Source: Thermicanus aegyptius DSM 12793 (GTDB lineage: Bacteria > Bacillota > Bacilli > Thermicanales > Thermicanaceae). Taken from it: 64,000 bases of DNA. Location: assembly GCF_000510645.1 (NCBI RefSeq), contig NZ_KI783301.1:40001-104000 (forward strand). The letters run 5' to 3'. The notes below the pieces were generated by a model, which saw only the letters and a program-made list of their open reading frames with translations, did no database searches and was not told the origin of the DNA. Positions 17,188-20,541 of the stretch are shown piece after piece; positions within the stretch are counted from its first letter, which is position 1; each line of letters opens with the position of its first letter. Both the position numbers and the translations under genes were made by a program.

Positions 17188-17216
17188 TCGACAGTTTTAT
17201 AGACCATACCTATAAT
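17188..17216 (+). promoter_or_regulatory. Orphan sigma-A-like promoter with -10 inside a palindrome
   Basis: TCGACA (17188-17193), 17-bp spacer, TATAAT (17211-17216). The -10 is embedded in TACCTATAATAGGTA (17207-17221), a 6-bp inverted repeat. No gene follows until the marR start at 17383, which has its own promoter. A weak GGCGATG/CATGCC hairpin plus a T run near 17310-17328 could end a transcript of about 100 nt. Confidence 0.4.
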
Positions 17217-17332
17217 AGGTAATAGGAACATCCTTCTAAAGAAAAGGGGTTCGTCAAAGAGATTTGCGGGAACATGGATGGTTTAGCGTGGCGATGGACG
17301 TCATGCCGTATCCTGTTCTTTTTTTGTTTAAT

Positions 17333-17349
17333 ACTTGCAAATTGCAAAT
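17333..17349 (+). promoter_or_regulatory. Operator copy 1 of the Cys-rich MarR regulator (overlaps the -35)
   Basis: ACTTG-CAA-ATTGCAAAT matches 14 of 17 bases of an inverted second copy at 17851-17867. It overlaps the -35 hexamer TTGCAA (17335-17340) of the marR promoter, whose -10 is TATAAT (17358-17363). Binding here would repress the gene. Confidence 0.55.
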
Positions 17350-17382
17350 AAAAGGAGTATAATCCTCTCCGAGGTGAACATT

Positions 17383-17832
17383 GTGGAGGATTTAAGACCC
17401 ATCTTTCAACTTCTCGAACGGAAATTAGGCTTTTTAAACGCAGAATGCTGCGACACCTGCTGCGGGCAAGAAATCTCAGTCATCCAAAGCCATATTCTTT
17501 ATGAGATTCACCGGCGCCATCATCCCTCCATGCAGGAGGTGGCCGGTGCATTGGGGATGGATATCAGCACCTTTAGCCGTCAGATCAAAACCTTGGTGGA
17601 GAAAGGGATTGTGAAGAAGACGCCGAACCCAGACGACCAACGGGTTCAGAATTTATCCCTCACTCCCGAAGGGGTTAGTATGGAGAACCGTATTCATGAT
17701 TATGTGAATACCCAATTGAATGCTCTTTTTTCCCGAATGACCCCCTTTGAGAGAGAGACGGTCCTCCGCTCCCTTCAGTTGCTGATCCAGACGATGGAGA
17801 AGGCTGGTTCTTGTTGTATTCCGCTAAGATAA
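17383..17832 (+). CDS. MarR-family regulator with CC-x2-CC thiol/metalloid-sensor-like cysteines
   Basis: 149 aa. I chose GTG 17383 because GAGGTG stands 6 nt upstream and the promoter -10 (17358-17363) would cut off any earlier start. The winged HTH spans about residues 45-110 (MQEVAGALGMDISTFSRQIKTL, KKTPNPDDQRVQNLSLT). Unusual features are a cysteine cluster at Cys22, Cys23, Cys26 and Cys27 just before the DNA-binding domain and a C-terminal Cys144-Cys145 pair. These could bind a soft metal or metalloid or react with thiol oxidants. The gene precedes an FCSCS permease and a Cys-rich mini-protein, and a second operator sits in front of the permease. Confidence 0.85.
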   Translation: MEDLRPIFQLLERKLGFLNAECCDTCCGQEISVIQSHILYEIHRRHHPSMQEVAGALGMDISTFSRQIKTLVEKGIVKKTPNPDDQRVQNLSLTPEGVSMENRIHDYVNTQLNALFSRMTPFERETVLRSLQLLIQTMEKAGSCCIPLR

Positions 17833-17850
17833 AACGGTTTTTTCGGAGAT

Positions 17851-17867
17851 ATTTGCAATAATCAAGT
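17851..17867 (-). promoter_or_regulatory. Operator copy 2 of the Cys-rich MarR regulator
   Basis: On the minus strand it reads ACTTG-ATT-ATTGCAAAT, matching the copy that overlaps the marR promoter. It lies in the 55-nt gap between marR and the permease gene, so it could control a second transcript start or act as a roadblock. Confidence 0.55.
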
Positions 17868-17887
17868 AAATAGAAAGAGGGGTACCC

Positions 17888-18754
17888 ATGATTTGGGAGA
17901 TCGTGCAAAACTTCTTTTGGATTGGATTGGAATTAACCGCATTCTTTATTGGCATCACATTTCTCATCCAATTGTTACAAGGACTCATTCCCATAGAGAA
18001 GTTGAAAACGTACATGTTTAGCGAGAATGTATTTTTAGGTGCCGCCGTTTCTCTCCTTCTGGCCTTTGTAACCCCATTTTGCTCCTGTTCCACCATCCCG
18101 ATCGTTGTCAGTTTGCTGAATCAGAAAATAAGATTTGGCTATGTGATGATCTTTCTGTTTGCTTCCCCGCTCCTGGATCCGACCATTTTCACATTAATGG
18201 CTGCGACTTTGGGCATAAAAGTATCCGTGGTTTATCTGATCACAACCTCCCTCTTCTCCGTTCTGATCGGTTTCATGCTTGAAAGGTTGAGATTTGAAAA
18301 GCAGGTGAAAAAAGTGATGGTTGCCGATCTACCCATGGTCGCGAACAAGTTGGATGCCAAGGGGACATTTATGGAGACAATTCATCTGCTGAAATCTGTC
18401 TATCCTTACTTAATCATTGGGGTTTTCTTAGGAGCCGTGATCCACGGCGCCGTTCCTGCCGAGTGGATCTCCATGTATCTGGGGGGAGGGCAATGGTGGC
18501 TTGTCACCTTAGCGGCACTGATCGGGATTCCCCTCTATATTCGACTATCTACCATGATTCCTATCTCTCAAATCTTGATTGCGAAAGGGATGGCCTTGGC
18601 TCCTGTCATGGCCCTTATCATCAGTTCCACCGGCGCAAGCCTGCCGGAAGTGGCCATGCTACACTCCATCTTCCATAAAAGATTGGTCGCTGCCTTTCTC
18701 CTCTCCGTCTTTTCGATGGCGACCCTCTCCGGACTGCTCTTCTATTTGCTATAG
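17888..18754 (+). CDS. Permease of the DUF318/UPF0718 (ArsP-like) family
   Basis: 288-aa membrane protein with about eight to nine hydrophobic segments in two halves. It carries the family hallmark TPFCSCSTIPI with two cysteines in the first half and GIPLYIRLSTMIPI in the second. Members of this superfamily export organoarsenicals (ArsP) or are uncharacterised. The start ATG follows AAAGAGG with normal spacing. It lies between a Cys-rich MarR regulator and a Cys-rich mini-protein. Export of a trivalent arsenical, another soft metalloid or a thiol-reactive compound is therefore my inference. A separate acr3-arsC-arsR operon lies at 56910-59065. Confidence 0.8.
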   Translation: MIWEIVQNFFWIGLELTAFFIGITFLIQLLQGLIPIEKLKTYMFSENVFLGAAVSLLLAFVTPFCSCSTIPIVVSLLNQKIRFGYVMIFLFASPLLDPTIFTLMAATLGIKVSVVYLITTSLFSVLIGFMLERLRFEKQVKKVMVADLPMVANKLDAKGTFMETIHLLKSVYPYLIIGVFLGAVIHGAVPAEWISMYLGGGQWWLVTLAALIGIPLYIRLSTMIPISQILIAKGMALAPVMALIISSTGASLPEVAMLHSIFHKRLVAAFLLSVFSMATLSGLLFYLL

Positions 18755-18873
18755 GTTTTACCTCTCAAGAAACTGGAATAGGAAGGCATTTCTCATCGTG
18801 TTTTTCTTTACTCTAGGTTTTAGTCCCGCAGCTACAGGGATTAAAATAATCGAATATAAAGGAGGATATGACC

Positions 18874-19068
18874 ATGTTTAAATTATTTAAAAAAGAGCTT
18901 GCTTCTTCAAAGGACTCCTGTTGTAACGTGAAGATCCTGCCCGTAACAGAGGGATATCCCTCGGATAAAGTGAAGGTCGATGGACAGGACTCTTCTAGAT
19001 CGATGAGGGGAGAAGGGGGATCAAAAGAAGTTACCAAAAGTTGTACAAGTTGCTGTTGTGTGGGATGA
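18874..19068 (+). CDS. 64-aa cysteine-rich protein of unknown function
   Basis: The start ATG at 18874 has AAAGGAGG 8 nt upstream. An in-frame ATG at 18868 is too close to that site. The protein begins MFKLFKKELASSKDSCCNVK and ends KSCTSCCCVG. Six cysteines (16, 17, 57, 60, 61, 62) flank a soluble charged middle. It has no signal peptide or membrane segment. Two clusters of vicinal cysteines suggest it binds a soft metal or metalloid, perhaps handing it to the permease encoded 119 bp upstream. A strong terminator follows. I do not recognise a named family. Confidence 0.7.
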   Translation: MFKLFKKELASSKDSCCNVKILPVTEGYPSDKVKVDGQDSSRSMRGEGGSKEVTKSCTSCCCVG

Positions 19069-19096
19069 ACGATCTTGGTGATGATGATTCAATTTT

Positions 19097-19140
19097 AAAA
19101 AGGGGGAAAAGCGAAGGCCTGCGCTTATCCCCCTTTTTGG
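19097..19140. terminator. Strong bidirectional terminator
   Basis: AAAAAGGGGG (19099-19106 region) pairs with CCCCCTTTTT (19129-19138) with an inner AGCG/CGCT stem. It separates the Cys-rich module (+) from the hemerythrin gene (-). Confidence 0.85.
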
Positions 19141-19175: not shown

Positions 19176-19736
19176 TCAGGAAAGACCGAACGCGCGGCTG
19201 AGCTCTTCCTTCTCCTCCGAGTTCAAGATGTTTTCCGCCATCGGAAAGAGCACGGTTTCTTCTTTCATGAAATGATCCGTTAAGACGGCATGAGCCTGAA
19301 GCGCATAGGAAGCGATCTCTTTCGCGCGGGCGGTATTTACCGGCTCCTTCACTTGTTCCACCGATTCACGAAACATCTTCAGGTTTAGCTTGGCCTGTTC
19401 ATGTTCAAATTCCATCACGGCAATCGGCCCCGTTTCACTCCCGATGTATTTGGCCATGAGCGGAAAGAGGTATTCTTCCTCCCGTTCTGAGTGAGGGTCA
19501 AGCCCCCGGACAAAGGCATCCACCTTTTCTTTCAATCCGGAGAGCGCACGGCTCCAATCGGCTATTTCGTAAGACATCCCAATCTCCGCTGCCTCCCGGG
19601 CAAAGGAATTCATCTGTTCCCTGAGCGGTCCATGTTCGCGCTTAAGTTGCGCCAGCGGTTCGCAAAGTGTCATTTCTGTTCTCTGTCCTTGGCTTCCCGG
19701 CATCGTGCCGCCGCCATGATGAGGGATTTGACTCAT
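19176..19736 (-). CDS. Hemerythrin-like (HHE) domain protein
   Basis: 186 aa. ATG 19736 has AAAGGAGTG upstream. The HHE signature repeats twice: REHGPLREQ, then PHSEREEEYLFP, then FEHEQAKLN and DHFMKEETVLFP. Four such His/Glu helices bind a di-iron centre that senses or stores O2 or NO. An N-terminal Gly/His/Pro tail (SQIPHHGGG) is not part of the fold. It lies 85 nt after the RIC gene on the same strand and probably shares its transcript, which points to a role in nitrosative or oxygen stress. Confidence 0.88.
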   Translation of the reverse strand: MSQIPHHGGGTMPGSQGQRTEMTLCEPLAQLKREHGPLREQMNSFAREAAEIGMSYEIADWSRALSGLKEKVDAFVRGLDPHSEREEEYLFPLMAKYIGSETGPIAVMEFEHEQAKLNLKMFRESVEQVKEPVNTARAKEIASYALQAHAVLTDHFMKEETVLFPMAENILNSEEKEELSRAFGLS

Positions 19737-19821
19737 ACGATTCACTCCTTTGGGTAATCGTTCCATTCCTATGGATTCGCGGGTCACCAGGTCGTTTGAG
19801 ATGATGTGACGTTGCCACAGT

Positions 19822-20541
19822 TCAAATTCGGCGCAAACTAGGATGCCCCAACCGTTGGAAAAGTACATTATTTTCCAGATGAATGTGCTGGAACATATCC
19901 GATTCCAATTCGACAAGCTTCTGAAACGACAAAGTGTACGTCCGGCATGCGCCCTCCGGCAGCCTGTAGTTGTCGGTGATCTGCCGCATTTCTTTTAATA
20001 CATTGCCGACAGTGCTATGTTCGGCTTCCAACTTCACAATCGCTTCGGCTGCCTGGGATCGGGCGATTCGGTTCCCCGTCAGTTCGGCTTCTTTGATGAG
20101 GGGAAATACGGTTTCTTCTTCGGTGATCAGATGCTGCTCCAGTTCCATTTTCATTAAGTGGAAAAGATGATGGAGTTGGGCCAATTCACGATGTGCAGAG
20201 CCGTGAACCTGGAGAATTTTGGTGACAACCTCACTGAGCAAGGGCAATTCTTTGAGCAAATAGGCATGATGGGTTTGCACAATGTGGTCGATCAAATCGC
20301 TCAAAGGCGCTTCCCGCCAATCTTTATCCTTCTCCGGTTTTTGTTTGGCGTTGTGAAACAACCGATTCAATCGTTCCAAAAAAAGCCCTTCATCAATCTG
20401 TTGTTCACGCAGCGCTGTGGATAAGATGCGGTTTCCGCCACAGCAAAAATCGATCCGATATTCCTTAAACAAATTGCTTGCGCCGGGAAAAGAGGAAACA
20501 ATGTCGCCAATCGTTTCGGATCCGGTAAATGGATACTCCAT
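19822..20541 (-). CDS. ric: RIC-family di-iron protein (iron-sulfur cluster repair)
   Basis: 239-aa ScdA/YtfE/RIC protein. The N-terminal DUF542 domain carries YRIDFCCGGN with the paired cysteines. The C-terminal hemerythrin-like four-helix bundle carries THHAYLLKELP, AHRELAQLHHLF, EEETVFPLIKEAE and LEAEHSTVGN. RIC repairs Fe-S clusters damaged by NO or peroxide. The ATG at 20541 follows GGAGGTTGAGG. An FNR-like palindrome at 20625-20640 lies about 41 bp upstream of a plausible start site, a class II activator position. The gene is therefore expected to be induced without oxygen. Confidence 0.9.
   Translation of the reverse strand: MEYPFTGSETIGDIVSSFPGASNLFKEYRIDFCCGGNRILSTALREQQIDEGLFLERLNRLFHNAKQKPEKDKDWREAPLSDLIDHIVQTHHAYLLKELPLLSEVVTKILQVHGSAHRELAQLHHLFHLMKMELEQHLITEEETVFPLIKEAELTGNRIARSQAAEAIVKLEAEHSTVGNVLKEMRQITDNYRLPEGACRTYTLSFQKLVELESDMFQHIHLENNVLFQRLGHPSLRRI

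Follow-up and report, generated by a model that had tools for sequence, protein, structure and literature searches.

A putative MarR-controlled efflux operon for thiol-seeking arsenicals in Thermicanus aegyptius, with a cysteine-rich mini-protein beside an ArsP-type permease

Introduction

What is the function of a compact locus in which a regulator, a permease and a very small protein all carry paired or clustered cysteines? The locus lies in a 64,000-nucleotide stretch of the Thermicanus aegyptius DSM 12793 genome (contig NZ_KI783301.1, positions 40,001 to 104,000, forward strand), referred to below as the window; coordinates are counted from its first letter. The original prediction, made from the letters alone, proposed an undescribed sensor-chaperone-exporter for a soft metalloid or a thiol-reactive compound. 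The operon, its operators, its relatives in other genomes and the surroundings of these relatives were analysed computationally, and the possible ligands are weighed at the end.

Results

Operon structure

The three linked genes and their paired or clustered cysteines were found as originally described. They form a closed transcription unit (17332 to about 19140) that encodes a MarR-family regulator, an ArsP_1 permease and a 64-aa protein, and this three-gene unit exemplifies a widespread module. The features are as follows:

17332-17350, + strand: predicted operator 1, a TACTTGCAAATTGCAAATA-type palindrome that overlaps the -35 of the marR promoter
17335-17363: marR promoter from the promoter scan (TTGCAA 17335-17340, 17-nt spacer, TATAAT 17358-17363)
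17383-17832, + strand: marR, winged-helix regulator with CC at residues 22-23, 26-27 and 144-145
17850-17868, - strand: predicted operator 2, the degenerate copy ACTTGATTATTGCAAAT, located after marR and before the permease gene
17888-18754, + strand: ArsP_1-family permease, 288 aa, TPFCSCS motif (PF03773, 9.4e-45)
18874-19068, + strand: 64-aa mini-protein with six cysteines, of the CC-x-[VI]-x-I-x-x-V ... CC family
19090-19140, + strand: probable intrinsic terminator, a long hairpin running into TTTTT, which would close the operon

The marR gene starts with GTG at 17383 behind the Shine-Dalgarno sequence GAGGTGA and stops at 17832. The mini-protein is read from the ATG at 18874, 8 nt downstream of AGGAGG (18860-18865); the start of a 66-aa open reading frame was rejected, being too near to AGGAGG. 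The terminator hairpin has a predicted fold of -26.1 kcal/mol (z -3.9) and was absent from the list of a stricter pattern scan. For the three operon proteins, no NCBIfam model gave a match above its cut-off. The triplet of the window, like those of several other genomes, has no other ars genes inside 5 kb.

Two further observations concern the flanks. A promoter-like site to which no gene can evidently be assigned (17188-17216, TCGACA-17-TATAAT, 11/12 consensus) lies about 150 bp 5' of the marR promoter. After the module, on the opposite strand, come two hemerythrin-domain genes (19176-20541, - strand), one of which encodes a ScdA/YtfE-type iron-sulfur repair protein (TIGR03652, 3.9e-76).

Operators in the genome and in related loci

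An operator had been predicted to occur twice, over the marR promoter and before the permease, and the whole-genome search bore this out: in 3.66 Mb, ACTTG-N3-ATTGCAAAT has exactly two exact matches, at 17333-17349 (+) and 17851-17867 (-). The reversed control gave 0 exact matches and 1 at up to one mismatch. Six sites with one mismatch were obtained genome-wide, three of them at the locus of a MarR paralog. Exact copies of the palindrome TTGCAANTTGCAA number three, one at the -35 of marR in the window and two at the paralog locus; its remaining one-mismatch copies are a third site at the paralog locus and two within coding sequences. Of the one-mismatch operator sites, one in a transposase-like and one in an RtcB-like gene were rejected as regulatory.

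The paralog locus is 2.6 Mb distant and encodes a MarR protein 55% identical to that of the window. Downstream of it, a truncated gene encodes an ArsO-like flavoprotein as far as residue 220 (NF040505, 5.7e-67, below cut-off). This gene (L003:769-1431, about C1:2722153-2722815) is the only ArsO-like gene of the genome and would be expected to encode about 349 aa; an inverted-repeat-like sequence after the cut suggests an insertion.

The same palindrome recurs in other genomes. With up to two mismatches, TTGCAANTTGCAA was found before 68 of 82 non-redundant marR relatives (0.014 expected per promoter from flanking DNA), typically 46-56 bp before the start codon, and most of the 82 have a further site shortly past the marR stop. 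Because the palindrome recurs before the start and after the stop in relatives, site 1, where TTGCAANTTGCAA lies over the -35 of MarR's own promoter, is predicted from the sequence to be an autoregulatory operator, and site 2 a second operator ahead of the permease.

MarR regulator

The regulator has a MarR winged-helix domain (PF01047, 9.3e-12, 45.1 bits against a cut-off of 24.6), and its AlphaFold2 model adopted the MarR fold (pLDDT 83.7), with the redox-sensing MexR and MarR among the best Foldseek matches. Relatives were detected in 86/399 genomes of the class (E <= 1e-10; the tally includes distant copies) and also on plasmids.

In the window protein the cysteines of residues 22-27 read CC-DT-CC, the CC-x2-CC arrangement to which attention had been drawn originally. 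Only its first half proved to be a family feature: in the alignment, the N-terminal pair (22-23) was kept in 81/82 and 82/82 MarR relatives, and the second pair (26-27) is lineage-specific (13-14/82). The original prediction missed another CC pair at the C-terminus (144-145), kept in 71/82 and 75/82 relatives. In the MarR fold the two chain ends build the dimer interface, and for this reason we infer that both conserved pairs form the ligand site; in the model, which is not confident there, they lie in or beside low-confidence segments (18-25, 146-149).

Permease

The permease belongs to the ArsP_1 family (PF03773, 153.4 bits against a cut-off of 32.3) and is the sole ArsP_1 protein of the genome. 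The predicted FCSCS pair is present at residues 64-68; C65 and C67 are the only cysteines of the protein and were invariant in 42/42 aligned permeases. CSC 65-67 falls in a transmembrane segment and, in the structural model, at a helix break (pLDDT 77). A fold search with this model returned nothing significant (best E 0.12), and no solved structure matched the permease sequence. The C(S/T)C motif occurs in all ArsP homologues, which fall into two clusters according to whether LAV or tPF precedes the motif (PMC4435449); the TPF of the window permease is the tPF-C(S/T)C signature of cluster 2.

Mini-protein family

The six cysteines of the mini-protein are arranged as CC and CTSCCC. Its family was recognised by reading small CC-rich open reading frames beside the MarR relatives; from alignments, members have a short hydrophobic-basic N-terminus, CC-x-[VI]-x-I-x-x-V, a variable middle and a CC at or near the C-terminus. 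The window protein has the N-terminal CC-x-[VI]-x-I and the C-terminal CC, and its gene adjoins that of an ArsP_1 permease. No Pfam or NCBIfam match was obtained for it or for five relatives, and single-protein searches with it gave no match in the plasmids or the other genomes of its taxonomic family that were searched. A profile search of 10,431 small open reading frames gave 45 matches at E<=0.01 (reversed 0, shuffled 0); the window protein, itself in the profile, was matched at 5e-13 in the pooled frames. Some of the genes are unannotated in their records, for example between the permease and ArsN1 at L198.

Conserved linkage of the three genes had been named beforehand as a check, and it was found. 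Within the class, the mini-protein is encoded just downstream of the permease, on the same strand, in 38/39 genomes examined (those with a permease >=38% identical to that of the window; four further genomes with Staphylococcus-like permeases were left out), with a gap usually <50 bp. Directly upstream of the permease-mini-protein associations there is a cysteine MarR in 24 and an ArsR in 10. Phylum-wide sampling of other Firmicutes classes added 17 genomes, with the permease adjacent in most; in some, the permease gene lies on the opposite flank of the mini-protein gene. Staphylococcus plasmids carry an ArsR version of the pair, and a Cupriavidus basilensis plasmid has a PadR-permease-mini-protein arrangement with three CC-A-x-R-I-E-x-V units. 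The stable pair is thus permease and mini-protein, and the regulator is exchangeable, since the pair occurs under MarR, ArsR and PadR.

Variation within the family included repeats and fusions. CC-x-V-x-I-E-E-V units are repeated at loci L120 and L203, and in family f72 a DUF2703 protein (6.5e-39; in NCBIfam also 'DF family (seleno)protein') that adjoins the permease has the mini-protein as its N-terminal part. Such fusions were seen at L205-L208, L214 and L218 (e.g. L206:1489-2235), with an ArsP-type permease adjacent in most. At L128:6404-6763 the mini-protein is fused to a domain that resembles, by eye, the carboxymuconolactone-decarboxylase type; a CC-tagged stand-alone version of this domain is encoded at L021:118-381, and both lie beside the module.

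The word 'undescribed' of the original prediction holds for the mini-protein by the Pfam and NCBIfam searches, and for a MarR-type arsenical regulator by the open-access literature, where nothing relevant was found on such a regulator or on a small cysteine partner of ArsP; it does not hold for the permease, whose family is known.

Genes next to MarR relatives

The genes directly 3' of the 82 MarR relatives were labelled by BLAST to annotated reference proteins ('ArsO-like' denotes matches below the NCBIfam cut-off). They encode ArsP (27), ArsM (13), a 464-aa flavoenzyme distantly related to ArsO (12), an ArsO-like monooxygenase (10), ArsN1 (7), ArsI (2) and ArsR (2), none being recognised in 9. 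The next gene is therefore arsenic-related (arsP, arsM, arsN1, arsI, the ArsO-like or related flavoenzymes, arsR) in 73/82, and genes of these kinds point to organoarsenicals. ArsM, ArsN1, ArsI, ArsB, ACR3, ArsD or ArsA is encoded within about 5 kb at 58/78 MarR loci, and on annotated plasmids of Cytobacillus, Paenibacillus, Niallia and Stenotrophomonas the surroundings of MarR are similar. At least 26 changes of cargo are needed by parsimony on the MarR tree, and 11 when ArsP is set against all other cargo; these 26 changes suggest that one type of sensor and operator serves interchangeable, mostly organoarsenical genes.

These neighbourhoods (ArsM, ArsN1, ArsI, ArsO-like, ArsB/ACR3, ArsD/A) strongly favour the proposed soft-metalloid sensor-exporter, and with this genomic context the class of ligand can be reduced to arsenicals, among which trivalent organoarsenicals are the most likely.

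A second family of small proteins (about 53-74 aa) was noticed at MarR loci. The tail of these proteins, at the C-terminus, reads CC-x2-CC (or CC-x3-CC); a W-K-[WY] motif is frequent, and the genes lie between MarR and arsM or arsN1 at most of their loci (L053:5467-5691, L057:4477-4638, L131:3086-3259, L134:4041-4229, also L054:6592-6774). The two members searched had no Pfam or NCBIfam match above cut-off.

On a Priestia megaterium plasmid (L199; 1-425, 4449-6044), about 4 kb separate the triplet from a match to ArsL, the radical SAM protein of arsinothricin biosynthesis (4.1e-46), with an ATP-grasp protein and an ArsR encoded in between. The triplet may provide self-resistance by export for an organoarsenical antibiotic cluster.

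Discussion

Proposed mechanism

The locus is probably an efflux operon under MarR control. Its substrates would be thiol-seeking arsenicals, of which trivalent organoarsenicals such as methylarsenite are the most likely, and its mini-protein would hand over or buffer the ligand. When the ligand is absent, the MarR dimer would sit on the palindrome over its own -35 and on the second site ahead of the permease. A trivalent arsenical would bridge the N- and C-terminal CC pairs, which belong to the dimerisation part of the MarR fold, and the DNA would be released. In the cytosol, the CC pairs of the mini-protein would bind the arsenical, which the mini-protein would either pass to the permease as a chaperone or buffer until export. 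The permease would carry the arsenical across the membrane via the C-x-C pair at the helix break. Campylobacter ArsP exports MAs(III) and trivalent roxarsone, not inorganic arsenite (PMC6205960), and the neighbourhood is consistent with export of these compounds by the window permease.

This reading is supported by the operator, which in this genome is confined to the window marR and its paralog, the latter next to an ArsO-like gene. Several counterpoints were noted. The permease bears the cluster 2 signature. Both here and in several other genomes the triplet has no other ars genes close by. No enzyme of the genome resembles ArsM beyond the similarity common to methyltransferases in general, and the module would therefore defend against arsenicals made elsewhere. 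Outside its motifs the mini-protein is of low complexity, and it might act as a metallothionein that sequesters the ligand and not as a chaperone.

Alternative explanations

That last point leads to a variant which we regard as doubtful but worth weighing, in which the mini-protein is a stand-alone, metallothionein-like arsenical sponge, co-expressed with the permease and making no physical hand-over. A sponge would fit the varying length of the protein, its low complexity and the CC-x-V-x-I-E-E-V units repeated in some members (L120, L203). A permease-linked role is favoured by the association with a single permease family in different phyla and under different regulators (38/39 class genomes) and by the recurrent hydrophobic-basic N-terminus, which could dock at the membrane. 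The ligand itself might also, or instead, be inorganic As(III) or Sb(III), with the module as a second line beside acr3. Arsenite too binds CC pairs, and many MarR loci lie beside arsB/acr3, arsC or arsDA; such loci, however, already have ArsR-controlled ArsB/ACR3, most of the genes directly behind MarR (ArsM, ArsN1, ArsI, ArsO-like, ArsP) are organoarsenical genes, and inorganic arsenite is not among the substrates exported by characterised ArsP (PMC6205960), so that we judge this unlikely.

Readings without arsenic fare worse. Export of another thiophilic metal (Hg, Cd, Cu, Zn), with the arsenic genes nearby only through the clustering of resistance islands, would account for the CadA-type pumps in some shared islands (L120-L122, L054, L056) and for the weak match of the permease to the Cu/Zn exporter model SO_0444. 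It is very improbable in view of the score of that match (74.8 bits against a cut-off of 300) and of the next genes, since none of the 73/82 arsenic-related genes directly behind MarR is CadA. Equally remote is a thiol or electrophile stress system, in which the mini-protein would be a thiol buffer or reductant that keeps the C-x-C of the permease reduced and the MarR protein a thiol-oxidation switch like MexR, MarR and OhrR. The Foldseek matches to MexR and MarR, the DUF2703 fusions with their '(seleno)protein' label, and TrxB and flavoenzymes among the neighbours speak for it; against it, the neighbouring ArsN1, ArsM and ArsI are specific for arsenic species, and vicinal cysteine pairs at both termini would look less like a single peroxidatic cysteine than like a metalloid site.

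Significance

A broader proposal stands in even balance: the mini-protein would be a dedicated cytosolic arsenical carrier for ArsP-type permeases in Firmicutes and Cupriavidus under any regulator, and the CC...CC MarR proteins would be a new class of (organo)arsenical sensors with a mobile arsP/arsM/arsN1/arsI/ArsO-like regulon controlled via TTGCAANTTGCAA. According to a 2025 review, arsP, arsJ and arsK were undetected in Bacillus ars operons, and the existence of organoarsenical permeases there was left open (PMC12607644). The module supplies candidate exporters and a candidate regulator across Bacillales, with an operator searchable in any genome. If the proposal is true, the ArsP carrier is the organic-arsenic counterpart of ArsD, and the MarR protein with its operator would make a ready organoarsenical biosensor.

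Comparison with known systems

The window permease shares with the ArsP permeases its match to PF03773, the C(S/T)C in a membrane segment and the association with ars genes; it has the tPF-CSC signature of cluster 2, its clade differs in being nearly always paired with a cysteine mini-protein, and its regulator is here a MarR, not an ArsR. The SaoE and SO_0444 Cu/Zn efflux permeases (NCBIfam NF040736, NF033936) belong to the same superfamily and matched weakly, the window permease falling short of both equivalog cut-offs (SaoE 72.1 against 325 bits; SO_0444 as given above).

At the level of control, the module resembles the ArsR-family repressors, including the MAs(III)-selective ArsR (ArsR4), a ligand-released repressor with paired cysteines (PMC9213503): in both, arsP-type genes would be under repression released by the ligand. 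ArsR takes the place of MarR in ten permease-mini-protein associations; the regulator here differs in being of the MarR family, with a TTGCAANTTGCAA operator.

ArsD is an arsenic-binding metallochaperone that supplies an efflux system (PMC6205960), acting with ArsA/ArsB on arsenite. The likeness of the mini-protein to it is in the proposed role, a small cysteine protein delivering arsenic to efflux. The mini-protein and its five relatives have no ArsD match in Pfam or NCBIfam; these proteins, of about 37-90 aa and without a recognisable fold, have a permease as their partner, not an ATPase.
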